Shown one piece after another: positions 12,578-57,258 of a stretch of DNA of 64,000 nt; positions within the stretch are counted from its first letter, which is position 1, and the number at the start of each line of letters is the position of its first letter. The stretch lies in NCBI GenBank assembly GCA_030323885.1, contig CM059193.1, forward strand, positions 72,763,543 through 72,827,542, written 5' to 3'. This stretch comes from Branchipolynoe longqiensis (Eukaryota > Annelida > Polychaeta > Phyllodocida > Polynoidae). The translations under genes and the position numbers were made by a program. The notes under the pieces were generated by a model. The model ran no database searches. It was not told where the DNA came from and saw nothing but the letters and a program-made list of their open reading frames with translations.

Positions 12578-14095
12578 ATGCAGCAAGTTCGGAAATCCAC
12601 CCGTGTGCGTCGGCCATCTTCTATAATGCAAGATTCGACAGACTTACAAGCGTCACCCAAGCCTTCAACAAGTCGGAAAAAGTCGTCGAATATAGGGGAA
12701 TCTGTCGACGAGCTGCCCGTCGACGTCGACCTGGCCGAGATGTCGTTATCCACAGTACATTCAGCAATCGACACTAAGCTTGCGTCGTTCTCAAAAGTTT
12801 TGTTAGGTCGATTAAAAGTTATTGAGGCGAATTGTACTTATCGACGCGGAGCAGCTAAGAATGTCGATGACGTCACAGATGACGTCGCCTCGGAGCAGGA
12901 GTTGCGCCCTGAGTCGCCCTCTGGTGTGTTGCGGTCGAATCAAGCGGAAACGTCCCGGAAGAGGCGTGGGTGCCGGTCGAGGCCTCGACATGCTCCTCTC
13001 TCGTCAACTCAACACTCAAGTAAACGTCGTTCACATTCATCAGATTCAAGCAGTTCGCAAAAGAGATCTAAGTTTCGACGTACTACTGAAAAGCATGTCG
13101 GAAAAGTCGTCGATGATATGTTTTCAAGTTCGGATGAAGCAGTCGAGTCGCCATCTAGCGGATTGTCGCCGAAGCGATGGCCAACAACCCGGAAGCGGCA
13201 TAGGGACCAGCATACAAGCACACGGTCGGGGGATCTACATCGTCGACACAGACTTCATGCATCTCCTACGGCGAAGCGGTCGAGGCAGTGTCGTTCTTCC
13301 TCGTCAGATTCGGACAGCGCTCAAGAAAACAGACGGCGTCTCAGATCCAGTCGTCGGGAATTCAAGAGAACTTCAGAAAGCAAGATGTTGATTGCAGAGT
13401 TACTATCATCAGCTGGTGTTACACTAAAGAAACAGAAAGGTAGGGATGATTTTATGCCACACTTGTATGTCATTAGAAAAGAAAAGAAGGGTAAAGTAGG
13501 TACTGGGGAGTCAGAGTGGTTTGAGTATTTTACTGCGTTACACCGTATGAGGCGAGATAGCCGTTTGCCTGAGGGTTGGGTAGATCACATCAAAATACAT
13601 GAAGAGGATCTTATGCTAATGGCGGCTGATTGGGAATGGAGTACGTGTCTCACTTGGTCAGAACGCATTTTCACTATGATTAATGATGGTCGGTTGGCAA
13701 CGGGGTGGGATGATAGGTATGCAATCAAAGATATCATGCGTGATGTAATGGCGGTAGGTGAAAGACGTGCCTCTTATAAAAACTCTTTTAAATCTGAATT
13801 TCATAAATCAACTAACTTTAGTAAGGAGTATGACTTTAATGTGGACGGGAAACCTTGCTACTCTTGGAACTGGGGCAAATCTTGTGAATTTTCTAGCTCT
13901 CATGGAGTCGGACAGGATAGGAAGTGTCATTACTGTGCATGGTGTATAAATAAATATAGGAAAGCTAACTCACACCGTGAGGTTGATTGTAATAACAAAA
14001 AGAGGGTGTTGGACAGGACGGCTTCTCGAGTTGACTCTGGTACCAAAACCGGGGAAGTTAATTCTAATAATGTTACCCAGGATTTTCAGTCATAG
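12578..14095 (+). CDS. Gag-like ORF1 of YR retrotransposon 1
   Basis: An open frame of 505 codons. The N-terminal half (to about residue 260) is low-complexity and very rich in Ser, Arg and Lys (RS-like), as expected of a nucleic-acid-binding region. The C-terminal half (from about residue 270) is conserved with the gag of element 2: 'MPHLYVIRKEKKGKVGTGES', 'EWFEY', 'W..HI', a W-rich helix, then a Cys/His cluster ('CYSWNWGKSCEF', 'CHYCAWC', 'HREVDC') that could bind zinc and resembles finger motifs in Ngaro/DIRS gag proteins. The frame has no internal stop. Its 3' end overlaps the next ORF, which is in the -1 frame. The first ATG may not be the true start. Role (particle and RNA binding) is inferred from position. 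Confidence 0.8.
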   Translation: MQQVRKSTRVRRPSSIMQDSTDLQASPKPSTSRKKSSNIGESVDELPVDVDLAEMSLSTVHSAIDTKLASFSKVLLGRLKVIEANCTYRRGAAKNVDDVTDDVASEQELRPESPSGVLRSNQAETSRKRRGCRSRPRHAPLSSTQHSSKRRSHSSDSSSSQKRSKFRRTTEKHVGKVVDDMFSSSDEAVESPSSGLSPKRWPTTRKRHRDQHTSTRSGDLHRRHRLHASPTAKRSRQCRSSSSDSDSAQENRRRLRSSRREFKRTSESKMLIAELLSSAGVTLKKQKGRDDFMPHLYVIRKEKKGKVGTGESEWFEYFTALHRMRRDSRLPEGWVDHIKIHEEDLMLMAADWEWSTCLTWSERIFTMINDGRLATGWDDRYAIKDIMRDVMAVGERRASYKNSFKSEFHKSTNFSKEYDFNVDGKPCYSWNWGKSCEFSSSHGVGQDRKCHYCAWCINKYRKANSHREVDCNNKKRVLDRTASRVDSGTKTGEVNSNNVTQDFQS

Positions 14096-16194
14096 GCCCT
14101 GCAGGGCCAGAACCATTAGACAATGTCTCTAATATTGATGTCCATTCTTTTTCATATGATAACTCGGAGAGCGATTTGATCTGCCGTGATGGTGACTTAC
14201 GTCCTCCAACTAACGTGCTCCATCCTCCAACTTACGTGCTCCAATCTTTCGTCCTGCATTCACAAGACGACGACATTACTGTTTCCAAGCTGGGAACTAA
14301 GGTTAGTCACTCTGGCATACCGTCCCTTATTGACTCTGATATGGTAGATACAAAATTGAGCAGCACAGATATTTTGGATTGTACGGGTGGTCCTGGGTTG
14401 ACTGAGAGTAGAACTTCATTAAGTGTTAAAGGTAGTTTGCAGAGTGTTAGTAAAAAATTTCATGATAGTAATTTATCAGATTTTCCCAGCTTGAGTTCAC
14501 ATACGGTAAACAGTCGTCGTTTTGATGAAGATCCCAAGAGCTCGTTGAATTCCCAGAATTCAAATGACGTTCCTCTGGCATCGACTCATCCACTTGAGTC
14601 TGGCTCATCCTCAACTTCGTGCAAAGCGAATGTCGATCGTGGTACCACTACCACTGTACCTCGGGTCTCCATGGCCCTGTCTGAATCCTTACGTACAACT
14701 TCTGAAAACAGTATTGATAATAATTTCAAAAATTCTCCTGACCGCCCCATTTCGCCGGTGGCGTTCAGATCAAGCTTGCTCGGTTTCTGGCCGACTGTTG
14801 CTCTAAACAATGTTGTCTCGAGTCAATATCTTAGTATATATGCTGAAGTACGGTCTTCAGGTTTGCCAAATTACTTATCTGCCCGGATACCTATACCCTC
14901 CGGCCTTAACATACCTATGTGGAAGTTCCTACTACAGGACTATGATGATTTTGAAATCGTAAGCTATCTAGAGTATGGTTGGCCTGCTAACTATACGAAA
15001 TCATTACCGCCGACTCCTTCATATGTCAATCATAAGGAGGACCCGAATAATTTCGTTTGGGTAATCAAGTACATTGCAACAGAGTTGAAACACAATGCTT
15101 TGCTGGGGCCTTTCAAGACAGTTCCTTTCACACCTTGGGCGCAGATAAGCCCTATAATGACTAGACCTAAAAAGAAATCTTTAGAAAGACGTATTATAGT
15201 GGATCTTAGCTTTCCTAAAGGTGCTAGTGTAAACTCCGGTATTAGGAAAGGTTTTTATCAGGGGCGGGAGATCAGCTATACACTGCCTAACATAATGGAC
15301 TTGGCGAATGAATTAGTTGCTTTAGGGAAGGGTTCTTTCTTATGGTCAATTGACCTGGCTAGAGCTTATAGGCAACTTCGTACATGCCCCCTCTCAGTAC
15401 CGCTATTTGGGATTACTGTAGGTGGGCACTACTATTTCGATATCGCTCCACCATTTGGATGTAGAACATCCTGCTTAGCTTGTGCCCGTACCACTAATGC
15501 GGTGGTCCATTTAGTTAGGAAAAGAGGTCACTTTGTACTCTGCTATCTTGATGACTTTGTCGGTGTAGCTCGCAATGAGGAAGAGGCAAAGTTGGCCTAT
15601 AGTGCAATTTTAGAAATTACTAGTCTGTTGGGTCTAAATTTATCTTTAAAGAAATGTGTTTCCCCAACTACAGATTTAGATTGGTTGGGATACAATGTTA
15701 ATACAGAATTAATGAGGATAACAATACCAGACGTAAAGTTGAAGGAAATACTAGATGAATGTAGACTTTGGAAGCAGGGTAAGCTAGTTAGTAGGAAAAA
15801 CTTGCAACGGCTGATTGGTAGACTCCAGTTTATTGCGAAATGTGTAACCCCTGCACGTCGTTTCATGAATAGAATCTTAGATATGCTTAGGGATACACCA
15901 TATAAGTCCAGGCGTAGGGTCACTGTGGAGCTAATGAGGGACATTAGATGGTTCTTGCGTTATGCTGAGAATACAAATGGCCTCGTACTATTGAATACTT
16001 CCCCAAGGTGTGATTGGTTAATTGAGTGTGACTCTTCCCTGAAAGGGGCCGGTGCGTATTCTAAATCAAGTTATTATTCTGAACTTTACTCTGAAGATGT
16101 GCTCTGCCTGTACACTAACATAGCGCAGTTAGAGGCGCTGAACTTGGTTGTTGCACTCCAAAATCTCGGTCCTCCCAGATATTCAAAATTATAG
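14071..16194 (+). CDS. Reverse transcriptase (with start of RNase H) of YR retrotransposon 1
   Basis: Open from 14071, just after the last in-frame stop, and overlapping gag by about 25 nt in the -1 frame. There is no nearby ATG, so expression by -1 frameshifting or reinitiation is likely. The first ~220 codons are Ser/Asn-rich and unrecognised. The RT follows: 'PWAQISPIMTRPKK', 'RIIVDLSFP', 'WSIDLARAYRQLR' (catalytic Asp), 'FGCRTS', and the YLDD active site at 15544-15555. It continues into the RT-RNase H connection ('GRLQFIAKC', 'MRDIRWFLRY') and the first RNase H Asp ('IECDSS'). It stops at 16192-16194 because of a single extra base near 16178. The rest of RNase H continues in the next frame, so this copy is probably defective. 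Confidence 0.85.
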   Translation, partial: CYPGFSVIGPAGPEPLDNVSNIDVHSFSYDNSESDLICRDGDLRPPTNVLHPPTYVLQSFVLHSQDDDITVSKLGTKVSHSGIPSLIDSDMVDTKLSSTDILDCTGGPGLTESRTSLSVKGSLQSVSKKFHDSNLSDFPSLSSHTVNSRRFDEDPKSSLNSQNSNDVPLASTHPLESGSSSTSCKANVDRGTTTTVPRVSMALSESLRTTSENSIDNNFKNSPDRPISPVAFRSSLLGFWPTVALNNVVSSQYLSIYAEVRSSGLPNYLSARIPIPSGLNIPMWKFLLQDYDDFEIVSYLEYGWPANYTKSLPPTPSYVNHKEDPNNFVWVIKYIATELKHNALLGPFKTVPFTPWAQISPIMTRPKKKSLERRIIVDLSFPKGASVNSGIRKGFYQGREISYTLPNIMDLANELVALGKGSFLWSIDLARAYRQLRTCPLSVPLFGITVGGHYYFDIAPPFGCRTSCLACARTTNAVVHLVRKRGHFVLCYLDDFVGVARNEEEAKLAYSAILEITSLLGLNLSLKKCVSPTTDLDWLGYNVNTELMRITIPDVKLKEILDECRLWKQGKLVSRKNLQRLIGRLQFIAKCVTPARRFMNRILDMLRDTPYKSRRRVTVELMRDIRWFLRYAENTNGLVLLNTSPRCDWLIECDSSLKGAGAYSKSSYYSELYSEDVLCLYTNIAQLEALNLVVALQNLGPPRYSKL

Positions 16195-16486
16195 AATTAT
16201 TATCAATACTGACAACACGGCTTCACAGCAAGTACTCTCTACGGGCGCTGGTAAGGACCCTGTCCTTTGTGCCTGTGCGCGCGAAATCTGGCGATATGCA
16301 GCGGATCACAGCTGTGAGGTGCAAGTACGGCATAAACCTGGCGCGGACCTCGTCCTGGCCGATGCTCTGAGCAGGCGACACTTTAATGATAAAGCGGCGT
16401 TCACCGCAGATTCTCTTTGTACCGAACTCGGAATCACGAGGATCCGGGTCTCCCATGAAGTATCCGTGTTTGACTTAAATCTGTAG
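16178..16486 (+). pseudogene. RNase H C-terminal part, displaced by a 1-nt frameshift
   Basis: The frame begins within sequence that overlaps the RT ORF end and carries 'IIINTDNTASQQVLSTGAG' (an RNase H catalytic Asp), 'CACAREIWRYAA' and 'LADALSR'. Element 2 has the same block in a single frame with its first RNase H half, which shows that the break here is a mutation (an extra A around 16178). The frame ends in TAG at 16484-16486, on which a perfect hairpin begins. Confidence 0.85.
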
Positions 16487-16527
16487 ATCTGGGAAGGTAG
16501 TGATATTGGCTCTACCTTCCCAGATCT
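16485..16527 (+). promoter_or_regulatory. Perfect 16-bp hairpin on the RNase H stop codon
   Basis: AGATCTGGGAAGGTAG (16485-16500) is exactly complementary to CTACCTTCCCAGATCT (16512-16527), leaving an 11-nt loop. The stem starts at the second base of the TAG stop at 16484-16486. The frame after the stop is open and is the recombinase frame. A role in stop readthrough, ribosome stalling or transcript processing is inference. Confidence 0.75.
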
Positions 16528-17479
16528 CCCTAATGGCCTTCATCAACAAGTACTAGATCTGTTTAAAGCAGGACTGTCGGCAGGAACCTGGAAGAACAAA
16601 CTGTACCATGTTAGGGCTTACCTGAAGTATTGTGCGAATTATCAAGTTAATCCTACTAAGCCACAAATATATGATGTAATGGCGTATGTAGCAGAGCTAT
16701 ATGGTCAATTAAAAACTCCAGGAGCTCTTAATAACTATGTCAGTGGAGCGAAAACCTGGGTTTCTCTGTATGGTGGTGATGTACAAGCATTTGAGTCATA
16801 TCCTGTTAAATTGGTCAAGAAAGGTGTGGGTAGATTGTCAACGCATAGTCCAACTAAGGCACTTCCTCTGTCTGTAAACGATATCATAAATATAGTTCAT
16901 TACTTTAAATCTGCCGGTAGCTTAGCAAATGTATTGATTGCTGCAACTCTAATAGGTTACTTCACGTTATTAAGGCAATGTAACTTGTTATTTTCCGGTC
17001 GAGACGATGATCCAGGCCACGCACTCGTAGGGGCGGATATACGTGAAAGCAGACACACGCTTCTGATCCGGGTTCGATCAACAAAAACCTCACGTGGAGC
17101 ATCAGGCCGGTACGTGGTGGAAATAGCAGCGATTCCTGGCGCGACTTGCTGTCCCTTGAAAGCCTGGCGCAAGTATGTTGGGTCTACACAAGTTGTCCCT
17201 GCGGGTCCTGCGTTTCTGCTCCCGTCCGGCGCCCCCCTCTCAGGCCCTACCTTGTTAACAGCAATAAGACTTGCTCTTGTTAAAACCGGTCACATTAATC
17301 CAGAGGCCGTCACTCTTCATAGCCTAAGAAGAGGTGCGGCCAGGGCCTGTGCGGAGGCGGGCGCTTCTATCAAGGATGTCCGTGAGTTAGGTAGATGGCG
17401 CTCCTCAGCGATATTTGATTACGTTCCTAAAAATGTGTTTAGTGCTGCACCTCTAACACTCGCTACGCAATTTGGCTGA
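16487..17479 (+). CDS. Tyrosine recombinase (YR) of YR retrotransposon 1
   Basis: This frame is open directly from the TAG that ends RNase H. The first ATG is at 16679, already inside the conserved N-terminal SAM-like domain ('AGLSAGTWKNKL', 'YLKYC', 'LNNYVSGAKTWVSLYGG'), so translation must begin upstream without that ATG, by readthrough, reinitiation or from a non-AUG codon. The catalytic domain has the expected R-H-x-x-R-Y set: 'LLRQCNLLF' (Arg I), 'LHSLRRGAARA' (His-x-x-Arg), 'LGRWRSSAIFDYV' (Tyr nucleophile). The enzyme would join the circular cDNA to target DNA, replacing a DDE integrase. No internal stops are seen. A hairpin covers the TGA stop. Confidence 0.9.
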   Translation: MWEGSDIGSTFPDLPNGLHQQVLDLFKAGLSAGTWKNKLYHVRAYLKYCANYQVNPTKPQIYDVMAYVAELYGQLKTPGALNNYVSGAKTWVSLYGGDVQAFESYPVKLVKKGVGRLSTHSPTKALPLSVNDIINIVHYFKSAGSLANVLIAATLIGYFTLLRQCNLLFSGRDDDPGHALVGADIRESRHTLLIRVRSTKTSRGASGRYVVEIAAIPGATCCPLKAWRKYVGSTQVVPAGPAFLLPSGAPLSGPTLLTAIRLALVKTGHINPEAVTLHSLRRGAARACAEAGASIKDVRELGRWRSSAIFDYVPKNVFSAAPLTLATQFG

Positions 17480-20155: not shown

Positions 20156-20806
20156 CAGTACAACCCTGTTAATCCAAACTTTTATCGGCGGCCCGGCAAA
20201 ATGCTACCATTTATCATATTGTCGTGGGGGTGATGAAAATGGGAAATATTGCGCCTAGAGCGGGACTCGAACCCACATCTCTTTGCATTCCGGGCCAGTG
20301 TGCTAACCATTACACCACCTAGGCTCCCGGATATCAACACACTATCCGCGCCTACCTGTCTATGTTGCTCCTTGCCTGAGAGGTCAGTGCAGAACACTAC
20401 AATATAAAAGAGTTGGTTAAACCAAAATCGGTTAATCCAAATTATCAGTTAATCCAAACAAAATTGTCAGGTGCCAGGCCACTTCCGGTACGTTAAACCA
20501 AGATTTTATGTGGTTATAAGGTCATCTGAGACCCCCACCAACTTTTTTAATATGATAATTGGTAGTAATTTGCCAGGCCGCTGAAAAAAAGTTTGGATTA
20601 ACCGAGCTTGGTTTGACAGAGTTATACTGTACATACATATAAAAAAAACTATGAAAGTGTCCACATATATTGTATATATTGCATTCATAATGCACCCACG
20701 TTTTTGCCCAAGCCAAGTCGAAGCCAAAGCTCGGTTAAACCAATGACCGGTTAATCCAAACAAATTTCTAGGGTCCCTTCAAGTTTGGTTTAGCGATGTT
20801 ATACTG
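20156..20806. mobile_element. Pogo-like MITE, composite of nested copies
   Basis: The left end CAGTACAACCCTGTTAATCC at 20156 and right ends '..GTTATACTG' at 20629 and 20806 are each next to TA. The interior has repeated 'ggttaatccaaac' and 'ttaaaccaa' blocks. Termini of the CAGTATAACC..GTTAA type with TA target sites are characteristic of pogo/Tigger-group MITEs. The simple copy at 30590-30850 matches both outer ends (20156 and 20806). The inner end at 20629 therefore suggests a second copy nested inside, and a tRNA-derived insertion sits at about 20205-20400. Confidence 0.65.
20253..20325 (-). mobile_element. tRNA-like head of a SINE or tRNA pseudogene
   Basis: On the minus strand it runs GCCTAGGTGGTGTAATGG, TTAGCACAC, then GTGGGTTCGAGTCCCGC and CTAGGC. 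Acceptor, D and T arms can pair and the B-box is good, but the anticodon arm (CTGG..CAAAG) does not close. It is therefore called a tRNA-derived pseudogene or SINE head, not a working tRNA. It lies inside the pogo-like MITE. Confidence 0.55.
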
Positions 20807-25466: not shown

Positions 25467-25591
25467 GGGGTGGACACAGGCTGGGCACGGAACGCACACA
25501 GCCGCCACCATGGGGAAGTTACTGTCGAAAATATTCGGCAACAAGGAGATGCGAATTCTCATGTTAGGACTAGACGCAGCAGGAAAGACCA
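25467..25591 (+). CDS. Arf6: Arf6 exon 1a: ADP-ribosylation factor 6, N-terminus (coding 25510-25591)
   Basis: Encodes the first 27 residues of Arf6, a small GTPase that cycles between plasma membrane and endosomes and controls endocytic recycling and cortical actin. The start ATG at 25510 has a full Kozak context (GCCGCCACCATGG). Gly2 is the N-myristoylation site, residues 2-13 form the amphipathic helix, and GLDAAGKT (residues 20-27) is the P-loop. Exon 1a ends after 25591 in phase 1 with donor GTATCC. The remaining codon is completed by CT of exon 2, giving Thr28. A pyrimidine tract and AG at 25465-25466 suggest a non-coding exon upstream, so the UTR part is 25467-25509. All exons together give 175 residues, the standard Arf6 length. 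Confidence 0.93.
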
Positions 25592-25768
25592 GTATCCTTT
25601 TCTTTTTGTGTATTTGCTCCGCCTTGGATCCTGCCAACACTGGGAAGTACTGGCACTTGTATCTTCGTGGTGGTTATATTTAAAGATCTACTCACCTGAT
25701 TTTAATATGTCCCTTGCATGAATTTTCACTTTGTATTTCTATTGTAGAAATATTAACTGTATTACACC

Positions 25769-44495: not shown

Positions 44496-44605
44496 ATAAT
44501 AATAATTGCCAACCCACCCCTGGACACACAGTGACATTGCACCCAACACGGCATGTGGGGGACAGACACACTGTGGGCACCGACATTTCTGAGCTTGTGA
44601 GCGCC

Positions 44606-44687
44606 ATGGGCAAGTATGTGTCCAAGGTGCTGGGAACCGGCGAGACCCGCATCCTCATCCTGGGCCTCGACATGTCGGGCAAGACCT
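44606..44687 (+). CDS. Arf6: Arf6 alternative first coding exon 1b
   Basis: An 82-nt open exon with the same length, phase and donor context (GACCT|GTATCCTT) as exon 1a. It encodes 27 residues, of which 17 match exon 1a: Met-Gly-Lys start, SK at 6-7, Gly10, Glu13, RIL at 15-17, GLD at 20-22 and GKT at 25-27. The P-loop is GLDMSGKT instead of GLDAAGKT, and helix residues 4-5, 8-9 and 11-12 differ. Spliced to exon 2 it would give Ser28 instead of Thr28 and continue as normal Arf6. Codons differ at most synonymous sites and are GC-rich, so this is an old, constrained copy. Start context is GCGCCATGG. A weak AG acceptor lies at 44530-44531. It could also be a non-functional relic, but no stop or frameshift argues for that. 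Confidence 0.78.
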
Positions 44688-44806
44688 GTATCCTTGTCGG
44701 GTATAGGGCGAAACAGGCATTGCCTTTGACCTTGTCGATGGACATTGGGTACTTGCCAAAACAACGGTAATGGATGAGTTCCACCACTCAATCGAAGAGC
44801 TAATGT

Positions 44807-45148
44807 AGTTGGTAGCAGCGCCCTGTGCAGCATGCTCTGTGGAAAAGGTCTTATAGGGGATTTCCACTACCTATCTACCCACCATCTGATGGTAGTGGGA
44901 AGAAGTAATGTGGGTAGCAGCACATTGCAGCATGCCCTCTGGAAAAGGTAGTATAGAGGATTTCCACTACCTGTCTCCCTACCATCTGATGGTAGTAGGA
45001 AGAAGTAATGTTGGTAGCAGCACATTGCAGCATGCCCTCTGGAAAAGGTATTATAGAGGATTTCCACTACCTGTCTCCCTACAATCTGATGGTAGTGGGA
45101 AGAAGTAATGTTGGTAGCAGCACATTGCAGCATGCTCTGTGGAAAAGA
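44807..45148 (+). repeat. ~101-bp tandem repeat, 3.4 units, directly after exon 1b
   Basis: Units start at about 44807, 44908, 45009 and 45110 with 'tggtagcagc.c.ttgcagcatg', then 'tctggaaaaggtattatag', 'aggatttccactacctgtct' and 'ccatctgatggtagt'. The CTACC.ATCTGATGGTAG part is a short palindrome in each unit. A diverged fifth copy lies near 45340-45440. The array starts about 120 bp after the exon 1b donor. Confidence 0.88.
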
Positions 45149-48196: not shown

Positions 48197-48225
48197 AAGT
48201 TGGGACAGGGGAGCTTATGATCCCG
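48176..48225 (-). terminator. 12-bp hairpin across the YR stop codon of element 2
   Basis: CGGGATCATAAG (48176-48187) is complementary to CTTATGATCCCG (48214-48225), with a 26-nt loop. The TAA stop (48215-48217, minus strand) is inside the stem. This is the counterpart of 17449-17490 in element 1, with unrelated sequence. Confidence 0.6.
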
Positions 48226-49318
48226 TCTTGAATATATTTTTATTAACATAATTAAAGACACTATCAGATTTCCACCGACCCAGTGTTCTTATACAGTCCA
48301 GCGGCATCCCCACTCTCGCATACTCTTGAGCCCCCCCTCGACGTAGACTATGCCCAGTGACCAACGGCCACCATGGGAGTCCAGCTGCCTTCAGTGCGAT
48401 ATGCATGCACCTTGTGAAGAGTCGAGCCGTCAGTGGAGCTCCGTTCGCCATTACGAACGCTGGGGCATCCTTATGCACTGGGAACCGCCTGCTGTATTTG
48501 AGCCACGCTTGAACTGGGCAGAGTAGAGAGCCTTGCACCCGAGGTAATTCAACTTTGTAAACGTCCTCATGTCTACTTGACGTTTTTGTGGACCTCACCG
48601 TGATCGTCAGGTGTGTGTTGTGTGCCTCGATGTCACCTCCGATCATCATGTGACCGTCATCCCCCGTTATCTCGGAGTAAAACAAATTAGATTGTCTTAG
48701 TAAACATAAATAACCTATCAGTAATGCAGCAATCAACACAAAACCATCCTGATCAATTTTCCTGAATTTTACAATTATTATTTTAATATGTTCAATCCTT
48801 AATGGGAACGCCCTATTTACAGGTTTGGTTTTCAACTTACACATGCCCGATTTAATTACCGCTACGGCATAACTATCAAACGCCGACGTGTTACCTTGTA
48901 ATAGCCTTACCCACGACCTTGCCCCGCTCATATAGTTCTTTATAGCCCCTCCAGTTTTTAATCTATCGTTTAGGTATAAAGAGTATAACATTACCGTTCT
49001 TAGTCTGGGTTTCTTAGGGTCATCCTTTTTGTTCTTACAAAACTTCAAGTATTCCCTAAATTGTACCCTTTTATTTTTCCACGTCCCCTCCGCTAATCCT
49101 GCTGTGAAATACACGCTAAGCCTGTTCACTACTGCGTGATTGCTATCTGCAAGTTGATAAGGCCAAATCATTAAATTAGCAACTTGTAGAGAACTATAAG
49201 GACAGATCAAGAACATCCATGTGACTAGAAACATGTATCTCTGATAATAGTTTTTCCTGACACAATGCGGCAGCAACGGACCGAAATTTATCCTCAAGAA
49301 ACAACCGACTGAGGGCAT
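48215..49318 (-). CDS. Tyrosine recombinase of YR element 2
   Basis: 367 codons, of which the first ~75 overlap RNase H or are unconserved. The conserved part starts near 'AGLAEGTWKNKRVQF', then 'YLKFCKNKK' and 'GAIKNYMSGARSWVRLLQG' (N-terminal DNA-binding domain). The catalytic set is present: 'LLRQSNLFY' (Arg I), 'TGHSLRRGGAQEYA' (His-x-x-Arg), 'LGRWKSDSVFNYVNK' (Tyr). It aligns throughout with the element 1 recombinase. It overlaps RNase H (49194-49318) in the +1 frame, so it is expressed by frameshift, reinitiation or its own RNA. In element 1 the relation is in-frame across a TAG. Open to its stop. Confidence 0.92.
   Translation of the reverse strand: MPSVGCFLRINFGPLLPHCVRKNYYQRYMFLVTWMFLICPYSSLQVANLMIWPYQLADSNHAVVNRLSVYFTAGLAEGTWKNKRVQFREYLKFCKNKKDDPKKPRLRTVMLYSLYLNDRLKTGGAIKNYMSGARSWVRLLQGNTSAFDSYAVAVIKSGMCKLKTKPVNRAFPLRIEHIKIIIVKFRKIDQDGFVLIAALLIGYLCLLRQSNLFYSEITGDDGHMMIGGDIEAHNTHLTITVRSTKTSSRHEDVYKVELPRVQGSLLCPVQAWLKYSRRFPVHKDAPAFVMANGAPLTARLFTRCMHIALKAAGLPWWPLVTGHSLRRGGAQEYARVGMPLDCIRTLGRWKSDSVFNYVNKNIFKTGS
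49183..49200 (-). promoter_or_regulatory. Small hairpin on the RNase H stop codon of element 2
   Basis: CTTATAG-TTCT-CTACAAG on the minus strand: 7-nt arms with one mismatch. The TAG stop is at 49196-49194, at the end of the first arm. Weak alone; noted because element 1 has a perfect 16-bp stem in the same place. Confidence 0.35.
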
Positions 49319-49838
49319 CCGCTAGCACCAGGTCCTTTCCAGCCTTGTGTACGATCTGCACTTCGCAATTATTCACCGCAGCAAAGCGCCAAATCTCCCG
49401 GGCACAAGCACACAAGACTGGATCCTTACCAGCACCAGAAGACAACACCTGCTGGGAAGCTGTGTTATCTGTATTAATTATAATAAGATAATTGTGAGGG
49501 TCAGGGGGAGACAAGGCCTGTAGTGCCATAACCAAATTTAACGCCTCTAACTGGGCTATATGAAAACCTTTTGCAAGAAACTTAGCGGAGTATTGATTAG
49601 AATAAAATTGTGTGTCACTGAACGCACCCCCACCTACGAGAGACGAATCACACTCGATGACCCACTTTTTTGCCGGGAAGTGTCGGAGCAGCACCAGCCT
49701 GTTTGACCCTTCTGCATAACGCAAGAACCATGCTATGTCCCGAACAAGCTCCATGGTAACTAACATTTTTCCTACAAATGGGCAGGATCTCAGAAAATCC
49801 AAGATACGATTCATGAAAATCCTAGACGCACTTAGCAA
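49194..49838 (-). CDS. RNase H domain of YR element 2 (separated from RT by a frame break)
   Basis: Carries the RT-RNase H connection ('FMNRILDFLRSC', 'VRDIAWFLRYAEGSNRLVLL'), then RNase H: 'VIECDSSLVGGGA' (first Asp), 'AQLEALNLVMAL' (Glu), 'IIINTDNTASQQVLSSG' (Asp), 'KDLVLADALSR' (last Asp). The four acidic residues expected for RNase H are thus present. RNase H removes template RNA during cDNA synthesis. Relative to element 1 about nine to ten bases are missing at the RT junction (near 49828), which shifts the frame and introduces the RT stop. Confidence 0.88.
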   Translation of the reverse strand: MLSASRIFMNRILDFLRSCPFVGKMLVTMELVRDIAWFLRYAEGSNRLVLLRHFPAKKWVIECDSSLVGGGAFSDTQFYSNQYSAKFLAKGFHIAQLEALNLVMALQALSPPDPHNYLIIINTDNTASQQVLSSGAGKDPVLCACAREIWRFAAVNNCEVQIVHKAGKDLVLADALSRLFLEDKFRSVAAALCQEKLLSEIHVSSHMDVLDLSL

Positions 49839-52380
49839 TAAATTGTAGACGACCCACTAACCTCTGAACATTCTTACGTGTAACCCTCTTCCCTATTAAC
49901 CATTTTTGACACTCTAATAAAATATCCAGGAGCTTGTCATCTGGAATCCTCACCACAAGATCGACCGAGTTAATCTCGTAACCCAACCAAATCAGTTTTT
50001 GCACGGGCGGGCTGCACTTCTTCAGCGAAAGCTGGAGACCCAGCTCCTTAGTTAAATCCAAAATACAATTATACGCTAATTGGGCCCTCTCGAAACTGGC
50101 TTCCACGCCGACGAAGTCGTCTAAGTAGCAAATGGCAAAAAATCCCCTTTTTTCCATTAAATGAACGACAGCCGCTGTCGTCCTGGCGCAAGCCATGCTA
50201 GAAGAGCGACAACCAAACGGCGGAGCAGTGTCAAAATAATATTTACCATTAACCTTAATACCAAACAGAGGGACACTCAAGGGGCAGGTCCTCAACTGCC
50301 TGTATGCCCTGGCCAGATCGATCGACCAAATGTAGCAATTTTGCCCTAATTTTGTCACCTGTTTTCCCAAAGTCATAATGGTCGGCAAATGATACTTAAA
50401 ACGCTTCCCCTGATAAAACCCTTTTACTATCCCTGAATTAACGCTACGGCCTCTTGGAAAGCTTAAATCAACAATAATTCTGCACTCAGTAGTGTTCTTT
50501 TTAGGTCGGGTCATTATAGGACTGATTTGAGCCCATGGGACAAACGGGGGATCATCGAACGGACCCAACATAGCCTTATGTGCTACTTCAGTGACAACAT
50601 ACTTATTGATCCAAAATACATCCTCCTTATCACATGTATGATTATTCATGGTAGCAGTAGGAATAAACGACCCTGTGAAATTTGAAGGCCAGCCAAACTC
50701 TAAGTACTGAATAACGTCTATGTCACCGTAACCGCTTAATAGCTCTTTCCACTTGTCAATTATTAGACCCGATGGGACAGGCAATCTAGCCTGCAGATAA
50801 TTGGGCAACCATGTTGCCCTTACTGCAGCATAGATCGACGCATAATCTAGAAACAAATTACAATTTGCTGTCAAGTTAGGCCAGCTAGCAAGAACATACG
50901 GTTGACACTCTAATGGGGACAGCTCGCAAAACTCCAAGCAACTATCGCTCGCGGTAGCTGAGTCAACAACAGGATCAACACTACCCGCTAGCACGTTATC
51001 AATACATACATCACCCCTAATTTTAGCAAACGTAGGAACATTAACAGGGAAATGGAACGGGACTTGAACGTCAGAGCAATTATGGACTAACTTAACGGGG
51101 GCGATCATGCCACTATGGCCTCCGGGATTAGTATCTAAATAGTTTTTGGGAGGTCGAGGCGACCTCCCGGCACTGGAAACACAGCCAGAGCCGGTGTTGC
51201 TGGCAACACACATTGAACGACTGACGCCCGAAATAACAATAGGTGTAATATTCATATCAGGCCGTACCCCAACATTCAAACTGGAACTAACAGGCAACAG
51301 TAACTCACAAGGACGGGATAACAAAGACGGGCTGTGATATGAATGAGGAGGAGAAAAACGAACTAAACTAGCGGCAGGACTAGTACAGGTTATGTCCGGA
51401 AGCGCAGGGCTATCCAGGGAGGGGGAAACACAGCCCCGACCGGTGGTGTTGGAACCACTAGACTGGCAAGCAGTATGTCCATCTGAGACGACAGGTATCC
51501 CCGTGACAAGGGAGGATGCACCCGGAGGCGACGACACACCATCCGCGATGTCGGTGTTACACGTGTGCGAGACAGTGTGGGAGTGTTCTGAAGGATGGCG
51601 ACCAACATGAAGGGATGTTGCAGACACGCGATCAGAAGCAATGCGAGAATCATCAAACGCATCATGGCAATCTCTGCCATGGGACCCAGTCAATGGCCCA
51701 ACCTTCACTGACGGTTTTACTTTTGCACCCATCCCTAAATTTACCCCGACAACACCCACCTCCTGCCCAGTGAACCGCCCCGCTGCACTGAATTTTCTCA
51801 TTGATCTATTAAACCATTTAAATGCAATACCCGTCCTACGTCGACCGCGAACACATCGGCGTGTCACTCTATGGCTAACCCTATCCTGGCGGGAGACAGT
51901 CCCGTACCGCCCGTCAAACGTGCAGTCACGTTTACGAGGACAGACAGTTGACACTATCCGCCGTCCAGCTCCAGATGTAGACATTGGATAACGTTCCACA
52001 ATAGGGCAGCACACGACGGAACACGATGGCGACAAGACGACAGAGGGAGGGACGGAAAGAGTACAGTCATGGTTTACACCACCATGAGCAGCAGCGGGAA
52101 CAATTACAGGAGGCAGACCGGGTAAACAAGGGGATGGCGTAGAAACAAAAGAAAAAACCGTACTGACCTGATTATGGCAATCGCTGACTGGGTCACTGTT
52201 ACACGAACCGCAGGCGCCCTCCTCTGACGTCACGACATTGTAGCACTCGGACAAATCATCAACCTCAGTACGCACGTCTGTAATTAGGGCAGCAGCTCCT
52301 AGCCAGTTGCCACCTAAAAATTCTTCGCACGAGCATCGGTGTCGGCTTGCTTCTCCCGTGCACGCAGCTTCGTCTTGCAC
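49822..52380 (-). CDS. Reverse transcriptase of YR element 2, with long unrecognised N-terminal region
   Basis: 852 codons. Residues 1 to about 490 are Ser/Pro/Cys-rich and unrecognised. From about 540 to the end is the RT: 'GDIDVIQYLEFGWPSNFTGS', 'PWAQISPIMTRPKK', 'RIIVDLSFPRG', 'WSIDLARAYRQLR' (Asp), 'FGCRSSSMACARTT', YLDD at residues 752-755 (about 50127-50116), 'LSLKKC', 'WLGYEI' and 'GRLQFIAKC' at the end. The gene overlaps gag by 67 nt in the -1 frame, as in element 1. It ends at a TAG produced by the frame break at the RNase H boundary. No methyltransferase motif was seen. Confidence 0.9.
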   Translation of the reverse strand: MQDEAACTGEASRHRCSCEEFLGGNWLGAAALITDVRTEVDDLSECYNVVTSEEGACGSCNSDPVSDCHNQVSTVFSFVSTPSPCLPGLPPVIVPAAAHGGVNHDCTLSVPPSVVLSPSCSVVCCPIVERYPMSTSGAGRRIVSTVCPRKRDCTFDGRYGTVSRQDRVSHRVTRRCVRGRRRTGIAFKWFNRSMRKFSAAGRFTGQEVGVVGVNLGMGAKVKPSVKVGPLTGSHGRDCHDAFDDSRIASDRVSATSLHVGRHPSEHSHTVSHTCNTDIADGVSSPPGASSLVTGIPVVSDGHTACQSSGSNTTGRGCVSPSLDSPALPDITCTSPAASLVRFSPPHSYHSPSLLSRPCELLLPVSSSLNVGVRPDMNITPIVISGVSRSMCVASNTGSGCVSSAGRSPRPPKNYLDTNPGGHSGMIAPVKLVHNCSDVQVPFHFPVNVPTFAKIRGDVCIDNVLAGSVDPVVDSATASDSCLEFCELSPLECQPYVLASWPNLTANCNLFLDYASIYAAVRATWLPNYLQARLPVPSGLIIDKWKELLSGYGDIDVIQYLEFGWPSNFTGSFIPTATMNNHTCDKEDVFWINKYVVTEVAHKAMLGPFDDPPFVPWAQISPIMTRPKKNTTECRIIVDLSFPRGRSVNSGIVKGFYQGKRFKYHLPTIMTLGKQVTKLGQNCYIWSIDLARAYRQLRTCPLSVPLFGIKVNGKYYFDTAPPFGCRSSSMACARTTAAVVHLMEKRGFFAICYLDDFVGVEASFERAQLAYNCILDLTKELGLQLSLKKCSPPVQKLIWLGYEINSVDLVVRIPDDKLLDILLECQKWLIGKRVTRKNVQRLVGRLQFIAKCV

Positions 52381-53570
52381 TCAACCTCTTTATGCGCATG
52401 CTTTCTTCTTAGTTTGTACGCGCAGTACGAGCAAACATGCAGAAAACGACTGCTACCGTCGCCATGGTCACTCGTGAACCCACAATCAGTTCCCTTATTC
52501 CAAAGAACACAAGGCCGAGGGTCCACACCCCTATTGTAATCGGACCGCGGTGTTTCCTGCACAGATTTTGTAGTGGCGACGTCCACACGTTTACCGAGAC
52601 CACATACGTCACGACGCACTTCAATAATCTTTGCCTCATCATCCCAACCATCCGGTAATCGTCGATCAGCGACCATTGCAAACACTTTCTCGCTGTAGTC
52701 CAAACACGTCTTCCATGTGTAATTATGAGCCATAGCAATAACTGAGTCCATATGATTATCAATATGCGGGATCCAGTCAGACGGAATATCACCCCGTTTG
52801 ATCATTCGCCTCACCGCCGCCATGTATTCGAACCACTTGGATTCCCCCTGTGCAACCTTTCCCTTTTTTTCATCTCGAATTACATATCTATGAGGAAGCA
52901 ATTTCACTTTCGCAGAACGTCTGGCCCTCTTACCAGCAATGCTTATTAAGTCTTTCATCATATCGTCATCCGTCTCCGTGTCCACGTCACTACAACAGTT
53001 ACTACAACCAGCACGCCGACGTACGACATGGCACGTACCACAACTAGCAGAAACCACCGCCTTTTTATTACCTTTGTCACGACGTGCTCCAGCACGTTTC
53101 TTGCAAGTATTACACGCCAGTGTCGGCTGGGCCGGCAACTCCGGCTGAGTGCATACGACTGTAACGCCGTCTTCCTCGATGACGTCATCATCCACAACAC
53201 CCGTGCCAGCCGCTGAACGATCAAGCGAAATCGAATCAGAAATATCACGATCCTCCAAAGTTGCAATTCGAGCCAACAGTGGCCCCTGAGCAGCAGATAA
53301 TTTTGAGTCGAGGAGACGGGAAATCTCCTCCAACGTCGCCCCTCGACTCACACAATTGGGCACCACTGGCGTCGACGAGCGTAAATCCTCCAGTCTCACA
53401 CGAGACGATGTTGATGGCGGTCGACCCACCGACCGACGTACATGAGAACTTGTCGACGGTCCAGATCCAACCATTGAATCAATCAATGCCTTTGAATAAC
53501 GGCCAACTTCACTTCGCACACGACCAACCTTAGGCATTCTGATAATATACTCGACACACAACAATTTCAA
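52314..53570 (-). CDS. Gag-like ORF1 of YR element 2
   Basis: 418 codons. The frame's first Met is at 53570 inside A1; a second Met at 53537 ('MPKVGRVRSEVG') is a likely alternative start. The N-terminal part is Ser/Arg-rich with a possible helix ('LEEISRLLDSKLSAAQGPLL'). A Cys cluster follows ('ACNTCKKRAG', 'CGTCHVVRRRAGC'). From about residue 225 it matches element 1 gag: 'LPHRYVIRDEKKGKVAQGES', 'KWFEYMAAVRR', 'CLDYSEKVFAMV', and a C-terminal Cys/His set ('CVLWNKGTDCGF', 'CSYCAYK', 'HKEVEC'). Function as structural/RNA-binding protein is inferred. Confidence 0.82.
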   Translation of the reverse strand: MKLLCVEYIIRMPKVGRVRSEVGRYSKALIDSMVGSGPSTSSHVRRSVGRPPSTSSRVRLEDLRSSTPVVPNCVSRGATLEEISRLLDSKLSAAQGPLLARIATLEDRDISDSISLDRSAAGTGVVDDDVIEEDGVTVVCTQPELPAQPTLACNTCKKRAGARRDKGNKKAVVSASCGTCHVVRRRAGCSNCCSDVDTETDDDMMKDLISIAGKRARRSAKVKLLPHRYVIRDEKKGKVAQGESKWFEYMAAVRRMIKRGDIPSDWIPHIDNHMDSVIAMAHNYTWKTCLDYSEKVFAMVADRRLPDGWDDEAKIIEVRRDVCGLGKRVDVATTKSVQETPRSDYNRGVDPRPCVLWNKGTDCGFTSDHGDGSSRFLHVCSYCAYKLRRKHAHKEVECKTKLRAREKQADTDARAKNF

Positions 53571-53756: not shown

Positions 53757-54497
<741 letters not shown>

Positions 54498-55280: not shown

Positions 55281-55479
55281 GATGTAGGAGGGCAGGATAA
55301 GATCCGGCCCCTCTGGCGTCACTACTATACGGGCACGCAGGGCCTCATCTTCGTAGTGGACTGCGCTGACCGGGACCGGATTGACGAGGCCCGCCAAGAA
55401 CTGCACCGGATCATCAACGACCGAGAGATGAGGGACGCTATCATCTTAATCTTCGCCAACAAACAGGACCTCCCTGATG
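55281..55479 (+). CDS. Arf6: Arf6 exon 3
   Basis: Acceptor CCCTTAG (AG at 55279-55280), donor GTGAGT after 55479. It encodes 66 residues plus one base: [18 protein letters not shown] (switch II with the catalytic Gln67), '[17 protein letters not shown]', '[19 protein letters not shown]' and ANKQDLPD (the NKxD guanine-specificity motif). Identical to the conserved Arf6 pattern by eye. Confidence 0.96.
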
Positions 55480-56997: not shown

Positions 56998-57006
56998 ACT
57001 CCCTCC

Positions 57007-57058
57007 CTGCCACAGCAATGGAACCGCACGAGATCCAGGAGAAGCTGTGCCTGACAAA
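57007..57058 (+). pseudogene. Duplicated start of Arf6 exon 4, with decoy acceptor
   Basis: Reads CCTGCCACAG then CAATGGAACCGCACGAGATC and continues as exon 4 to 'gaagctgtgcctgac', with Lys changed to Glu ([11 protein letters not shown]) and Gly to Cys, then switches to intron-like 'aaaatcctgtaggttgcacc'. It has a working-looking 3' splice site but no donor. If used, it would read through to frame-shifted sequence that stops early and loses the Arf C-terminus. The true exon copy follows about 100 bp later. Confidence 0.85.
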
Positions 57059-57115: not shown

Positions 57116-57258
57116 CAATGAAGCCGCACGAGATCCAGGAGAAGCTGGGTCTGACGCGGATACGGGACCGGAACTGGTATGTGCAACCGTCGTGCGCCAC
57201 GACGGGGGACGGGCTCTATGAGGGGCTGACGTGGCTCACGTCCAACGCCAAGTCGTGA
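57116..57258 (+). CDS. Arf6: Arf6 exon 4 (C-terminus and stop)
   Basis: Acceptor CTGTCACAG (AG at 57114-57115). It completes the Ala codon left by exon 3 and encodes '[20 protein letters not shown]' and [17 protein letters not shown], ending LTSNAKS and TGA (57256-57258). CAT in SCATTGDG contacts the guanine base. The C-terminal NAKS differs from the NYKS usual in vertebrates. Total protein 175 residues. Confidence 0.96.

Follow-up and report, generated by a model that had tools for sequence, protein, structure and literature searches.

The Arf6 locus

The stretch of DNA analysed here (64,000 nucleotides; the window) contains one Arf6 gene on the + strand, whose four coding exons give a 175-aa protein. 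Exon 1a (25467..25591) consists of 43 nt of 5'UTR after a U2-type acceptor and 82 nt of coding sequence (25510-25591) for residues 1-27 and the first base of codon 28. It is followed by the U12-type donor GTATCCTTT (25592..25600). Exon 2 (54355..54458), exon 3 (55281..55479, with U2-type introns on both sides) and the coding part of exon 4 through the TGA (57116..57258), all on the + strand, would be common to the two forms of the protein discussed below. Intron 1 is 28,763 nt long (approximately 28.8 kb) and includes, on the same strand, exon 1b (44606..44687), a putative alternative first coding exon for residues MGKYVSKVLGTGETRILILGLDMSGKT and the first base of codon 28. The U12-type donor of exon 1b, GTATCCTT, is at 44688..44695 (+), and exon 2 lies 9.7 kb from 1b. 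The U12-type branch site CTCCTTAAC (54336..54344, +) places the branch A 11 nt 5' of the exon 2 boundary. A weak candidate U2-type acceptor upstream of 1b, cccacccctggacacacAG (44530..44531, +), is assigned with low confidence.

The window holds a single set of exons 2-4, besides a partial copy of exon 4. This partial duplicate of the exon start and its acceptor (57003-57057) is 100 nt 5' of the true exon 4, is identical to it at 36 of 42 exon bases and 12 of 13 preceding bases, and runs into sequence that recurs nearby. Two retroelements are present, at 12578-17479 (+) and 48215-53570 (-), the second within the intron between 1b and exon 2. In both, the reverse transcriptase frames score above the Pfam cut-off and the tyrosine-recombinase frames do not reach it, and we take both to be DIRS-like. 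The sole tRNA found in the window is tRNA-Ser (GGA) at 20251-20324 (-). Directly 3' of exon 1b, at 44826-45147, is a repeat in three copies with 100 bp spacing.

Exon 1b resembles exon 1a

A sequence-only reading had proposed 1b as a second first coding exon of Arf6, matched to the first in length and phase, and the match was found as described: 82 nt, an ATGGGC start, a phase-1 end and a GTATCCTT donor. Exon 1a likewise has 82 coding nucleotides and then GTATCCTT, and the two exons are identical at 51 of the 82. We obtained the same count of common residues that had been claimed (17 of 27; the 1b residues are MGKYVSKVLGTGETRILILGLDMSGKT). The P-loop pairs AA (1a) and MS (1b) and the alternatives Thr28 and Ser28 were also read correctly; joining to exon 2 gives codon 28 as ACT (Thr) with 1a and TCT (Ser) with 1b. 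Joined to exons 2-4, 1b encodes a 175-aa Arf6, as 1a does, and the two isoforms differ at 11 residues. The N-terminus from 1b (MGK...GLDMSGKT, 27 residues) aligns with that from 1a without gaps and has the Arf6 length, Met-Gly and a GxxxxGKT P-loop. No stop, frameshift, or damage to the start or donor is present in the 82+8 nt of 1b, and its start context is GCGCCATGG, a favourable one.

A tblastn search of the window with Arf6 recovered 1b with E 1.2e-7, and the best match outside the Arf6 exons had E 0.75. Against the Pfam Arf profile (PF00025), 1b by itself, a short fragment of 27 residues, reached 19.1 bits (E 0.00094), below the curated cut-off of 22.3; the corresponding residues of 1a reached 30.4 bits. 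In the PDB the whole 1b isoform is closest to ADP-ribosylation factor 6 (2a5d), with E 2.7e-110 over residues 1-175 against 1.6e-80 for the best Arf1; this rank is due mostly to the exons common with the 1a form. The first 40 residues of the isoform, 13 of them from the exon 2 junction onward, also rank Arf6 first. Among N-termini of the same genome, BLOSUM62 scores against 1b were 86 for 1a (ungapped), 71 for an Arf1-like protein (gapped; its N-terminal alignment needs a 4-residue gap) and 69 for an Arl1-like one. Derivation of 1b from an Arf1 or Arl1 exon is less likely given these lower scores, the Arl1-like sequence being a reading frame with a provisional start.

Age and constraint of exon 1b

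The 30 differences between 1a and 1b over the 81 bases of codons 1-27 are distributed 7/5/18 among codon positions 1/2/3. Neutral copies of 1a, simulated with 30 random changes, kept a mean of 9.5 residues; at least 17 were kept in 2 of 20,000 copies, or in 1 of 20,000 with the base composition of 1b, and 72% of the copies in the first simulation run contained a stop. By the Nei-Gojobori method pS is 0.76 (beyond correction), pN is 0.24 and pN/pS is 0.32, and a ratio this low occurred in 1 of 5000 stop-free simulations. The claim that most silent sites have changed is thus borne out, with silent divergence near saturation. All 8 donor bases are kept, compared with 9 of 27 third codon positions and 4 of the next 20 intron bases. 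G or C occupies 25 of 27 third positions in 1b and 16 of 27 in 1a; part of the silent divergence is due to this GC shift in 1b, and estimates of age are therefore unsafe. From these comparisons we infer that 1b is an old duplicate of 1a held by protein-level selection, the constraint test being blind to whether 1b is still used at present.

Several other origins were considered and set aside. A chance ORF is excluded by the frame and donor match, the tblastn E value, the simulations and pN/pS, and a retrocopy by retention of the donor with 8 intron bases. Recent segmental duplication is excluded because homology of the 3-kb flanks amounts to 95 bases (66% identity) besides dispersed repeats, and because silent sites are near-saturated. 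An intronless Arf reading on beyond 44687 was also rejected: the frame is open to 44770, yet has no likeness to Arf past KTCIL.

Intron 1 is of the minor-spliceosome type

The donor sequence GTATCCTT is a U12-type (minor spliceosome) 5' splice site at both 1a and 1b. That the two donors match had been recognized from the sequence, as plain similarity; the identity stands, and what that reading missed was the minor-spliceosome class, which accounts for it. Two papers give the U12 consensus, one with the donor /RTATCCTTT and the branch site UCCUUAACU (PMC2846911), the other with the donor RTATCCTT and the branch site TCCTTRAY (PMC10853781).

We scored U12 donors and branch sites with approximate matrices. 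On that scale the 1a donor (15.7) is the top of the window on both strands, and the 1b donor scores 13.5, level with two unrelated sites in the window (13.6 and 13.5). The branch site plus AG of exon 2 (13.1) is the top U12 acceptor on either strand; the next (12.7) is at 63.9 kb, past exon 4. Among the 12 best + strand branch-plus-AG sites, one besides that of exon 2, at 49422 (7.9), lies between 1b and exon 4, and none lies between 34.9 kb and 49.4 kb. The branch site before exon 2, with its A 11 nt from the boundary, has a U12 form like TCCTTAAC, a word with a single occurrence in the window, both strands counted. In U12-type introns the distance from branch A to acceptor keeps to a usual range. 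The + strand of the window has 5 exact RTATCCTT sites and the - strand has 0. Introns 2 and 3, with GTAAGT and GTGAGT donors, belong to the ordinary U2 type.

The organism has a minor spliceosome, judged by its U11 and U12 snRNA genes: in its genome (1.85 Gb) a U12 snRNA scores 119.7 bits, and U11 is present at two loci that score 94.2 and 94.1 bits. A pattern combining the P-loop with the U12 donor, GGNAARACNNRTATCCTT, had 4 matches in the 1.85 Gb. Exons 1a and 1b account for two of them, and the remaining two have no preceding P-loop. The reversed control had 9 matches, more than the pattern itself, which by itself is therefore not significant, and equal-scoring donors exist in the window; thus the 1b donor is telling only because of where it stands, directly after a P-loop exon.

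The codon-28 intron in other organisms

Used as a protein query, the 1a frame in unspliced form gave 438 proteins with E<=1 among 445 candidates, and we read the best 120 of the 438. In 57 of these 120 the sequence continues GKT-TI, the intron being absent there or spliced. The other 63 diverge after GKT, and they include a frame from Ladona fulva (P0104). After GKT, 52 of the 63 have SIL, 7 SIF, 2 SE, 1 SKCS and 1 SIYS. SIL is the read-through of A|GTATCCT(T), and so 52 of the 63 diverging frames among those listed fit a U12 donor; these counts are biased, as the query itself contained SIL, which raises such matches, and they come from protein letters with the codons unseen. One frame, P0001, continues through a short intron to a terminal FSLTCKISTAILYK, which would agree with a TTCCTTAAC branch site. 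In many organisms the Arf6 codon-28 intron is apparently minor-class, and as a U12-type intron it is probably old. In two Arf6 read-through ORFs (P0010 and P0093) GKT is followed by SE, the reading expected from a U2-type GTGAG donor, and they are possible U12-to-U2 conversions of this intron.

Searches of open full texts found no paper that pairs Arf6 with minor-class or U12-type introns. Pairing U12-type introns with ADP-ribosylation factor in open full texts found two papers, on barley microRNAs and Arabidopsis cells. Minor-intron databases may already list the Arf6 intron. According to an ARF family survey, intron positions mark an Arf6 clade and duplication of Arf6 seems only sporadic; the terms alternative splicing, isoform and U12 are all absent from its main text (PMC8358228).

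Genome searches for a second exon 1b

A search of the organism's own genome with Arf6 gave 37 matches, with 86-96% identity at the four exons of the locus and at most 80% elsewhere; 1b itself is absent from these matches. Arf6-grade exons 2-4 outside the locus are not among the 37. One contig (C1487; 58-79%) carries an Arf1-like gene in which codon 28 has no intron. Another Arf-family gene, on C5 of the same genome (L006, 1501-2958), has an intron that splits the P-loop before GKT.

A second genome search used 1b and the start of exon 2 as the query; all 16 candidates were scored, and 14 matches had E<=1. In order, these are 1b (E 7.2e-11), 1a, exon 2 and eleven other places. Seven of the eleven are Arf-family matches of the Arf6 search or overlap them, and the remaining four are weak, with E from 0.07 to 0.43 (C13:78056660, C1:163610314, C7:68304191 and C1:66428484). 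No second 1b-like exon is among these 14 matches, and none of the eleven other places covers the first residues at the identity of 1b. In the 200,917 bp flanking the window (approximately 100 kb on each side), tblastn found no Arf exon (best E 0.37).

Relatives of 1b were also sought elsewhere. Among proteins, the spliced 1b isoform had one match, an Arf6 with a read-through intron. The unspliced 1b frame found no relative in the protein database, in a search confined to ORFs of comparable length that have three words in common with the query. Scans of viral and prokaryotic contigs found no relative; one scan gave 13 pattern-matching stretches, of which 0 were confirmed.

Transcript start and choice between exons 1a and 1b

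We measured acceptor strength by a simple pyrimidine score, expressed as a percentile among the 3436 + strand AGs of the window. The three U2-type acceptors of the gene are at percentiles 0.975-0.999, and the one that begins exon 1a at 25467 is at 0.998. Because a strong acceptor precedes 1a, there is probably a noncoding exon upstream; 1a would thus open the coding sequence and probably not the transcript itself. The best acceptors before 1b are 44450 (0.938), inside a dispersed repeat, and 44532 (0.869). A dispersed repeat ends approximately 100 nt 5' of 1b. The AG at 44530-44531, if used, would give 1b a 74-nt 5'UTR. No CpG richness was found 5' of 1b.

Alternative promoters and mutually exclusive splicing had both been offered as the means of choosing between the exons. 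A promoter fits better: without a strong acceptor before 1b, a separate 1b promoter is favoured over classical mutually exclusive splicing, and a second promoter for 1b is the likelier arrangement. We postulate that an old duplication of exon 1a within intron 1 gave rise to 1b, that 1b is transcribed from a second promoter just 5' of it, and that the minor spliceosome joins the U12 donor of 1b to exon 2, whose U12 acceptor lies 9.7 kb 3'. The types of both sites are as described above; their use is what the model supposes. U12 donors are expected to be spliced to U12 acceptors alone. The 1a donor would thus skip 1b, and inclusion of both exons, 164 nt in total, would shift the frame, so that a transcript would encode one isoform or the other. 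A joint 1a-1b transcript is unlikely, given this frame break and the lack of a U12 acceptor at 1b for the 1a donor among the 12 best + strand sites (none between 34.9 kb and 49.4 kb).

The same two isoforms could instead arise from one promoter, a common 5'UTR exon being spliced to 1a (at 25467) or to 1b (for example at 44532) in a mutually exclusive manner. The strong acceptor of 1a and the probable noncoding exon upstream suit this arrangement, and the weak AG at 44530-44531 could serve 1b. An alignment of the 1a 5'UTR with the bases preceding 1b covers 26 columns, 19 of them identical (shuffle p 0.014), and is also consistent with it; as homology of two 5'UTRs we set this alignment aside as weak. 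However, the best acceptors available to 1b fall below the percentiles of the gene's own three, and the stronger is in a dispersed repeat. We regard this single-promoter scheme as possible and somewhat doubtful, and its probability overlaps that of the preferred explanation.

Is exon 1b in use?

It is likely, in our view, that 1b functions as an alternative first coding exon and gives Arf6 a second isoform. The earlier proposal is supported in part: frame and phase, constraint, the U12 donor-acceptor match and the genome searches all favour 1b as an alternative first coding exon. The animal is probably able to produce two forms of Arf6 that differ at the membrane-binding end, and 1b is most likely in use through the minor-class intron. 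Against its use, 10 of 27 residues differ from 1a, whereas the 120 listed ORFs have 0 to 3 differences from it.

Exon 1b could also be a relic, a formerly used alternative exon that recently lost its promoter or acceptor and is now silent. The lack of a strong acceptor 5' of 1b, the repeat end close by, the failure of the protein search to find a 1b relative and the departure of 10 of 27 residues from a nearly invariant exon would all be expected of such a relic. But the 82+8 nt are intact in frame, start and donor, the start context GCGCCATGG is favourable and the signature of constraint is still strong, and we think that this outcome is unlikely. It is highly improbable that 1b heads a separate Arf6 paralogue with its other exons elsewhere: saturated silent sites would suit an old independent copy, but the genome search matches include no Arf6-grade exons 2-4 beyond the window, the 200,917 bp flank has no Arf exon, and 1b would have to bypass the nearest matching U12 acceptor, 54355.

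Our preferred explanation, that 1b is a functional alternative first exon, can be extended. We give about an even chance to the fuller proposal that one Arf6 gene would encode two promoter-chosen switches that differ in helix and P-loop, both dependent on U12-type splicing, the 1b form being a natural, selected Arf6 whose nucleotide pocket is altered (Met23, Ser24, Ser28).

Predicted consequences for the protein

Exon 1b keeps Gly2, Lys3, Ser6, Lys7, Gly10, Glu13, RIL, LGLD and GKT, and its isoform would thus retain the myristoylation start (Gly2, Lys3, Ser6, Lys7). The changes from the 1a to the 1b isoform are L4Y, L5V, I8V, F9L, N11T, K12G, M14T, M18I, A23M, A24S and T28S. In the helix, the residues at L4Y, L5V, I8V and F9L all remain hydrophobic or aromatic. 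Mean hydrophobicity of residues 2-14 is 0.305 for 1a and 0.228 for 1b, the helical moments are 0.31 and 0.36, respectively, and amphipathicity gives no sign of a broken 1b helix. All 120 listed ORFs have A23 A24, the conserved P-loop pair that 1b replaces with M23 S24. F9, N11, M18, A23 and A24 are invariant in the 120, a list that leans to these residues since the query held them. Half of the ten changes in 1b therefore affect residues that never vary in this list. This suggests that the isoform is specialised and not redundant, or, if 1b is a relic, that it has decayed. The 1b isoform probably differs in membrane residence and nucleotide exchange.

Parallels can be drawn with three known arrangements. 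Compared with an Arf6 (class III Arf) that has only one first coding exon, the gene described here agrees in N-terminus length, Gly2, Ser6/Lys7, RILxLGLD and GKT, and in the phase 1 intron with a U12-like donor in codon 28; it differs in having a second first coding exon that changes the helix and the P-loop (M23 S24, then S28). Tandem-duplicated mutually exclusive exons likewise are equal-length homologues of the same phase, with a frameshift on double inclusion and a minor-class site. In one study, human mutually exclusive clusters with U2/U12 acceptor incompatibility number 5 cases, or 0.79% of clusters (PMC5740500). Unlike those exons, the pair here is a first coding exon, has a U12 donor on both copies and is likely chosen by promoter. 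There are also genes in which alternative promoters and first coding exons alter an N-terminal membrane anchor. These too put different N-termini on a common body, whereas in Arf6 the alternative exons are homologous and include the P-loop, so that nucleotide handling may change too, and the common junction is a minor-class intron.

If 1b is a second selected N-terminus, it would provide a natural experiment on the parts of Arf6 that set membrane residence and nucleotide exchange. The minor-class codon-28 intron links Arf6, a core membrane-traffic GTPase, to the minor spliceosome.
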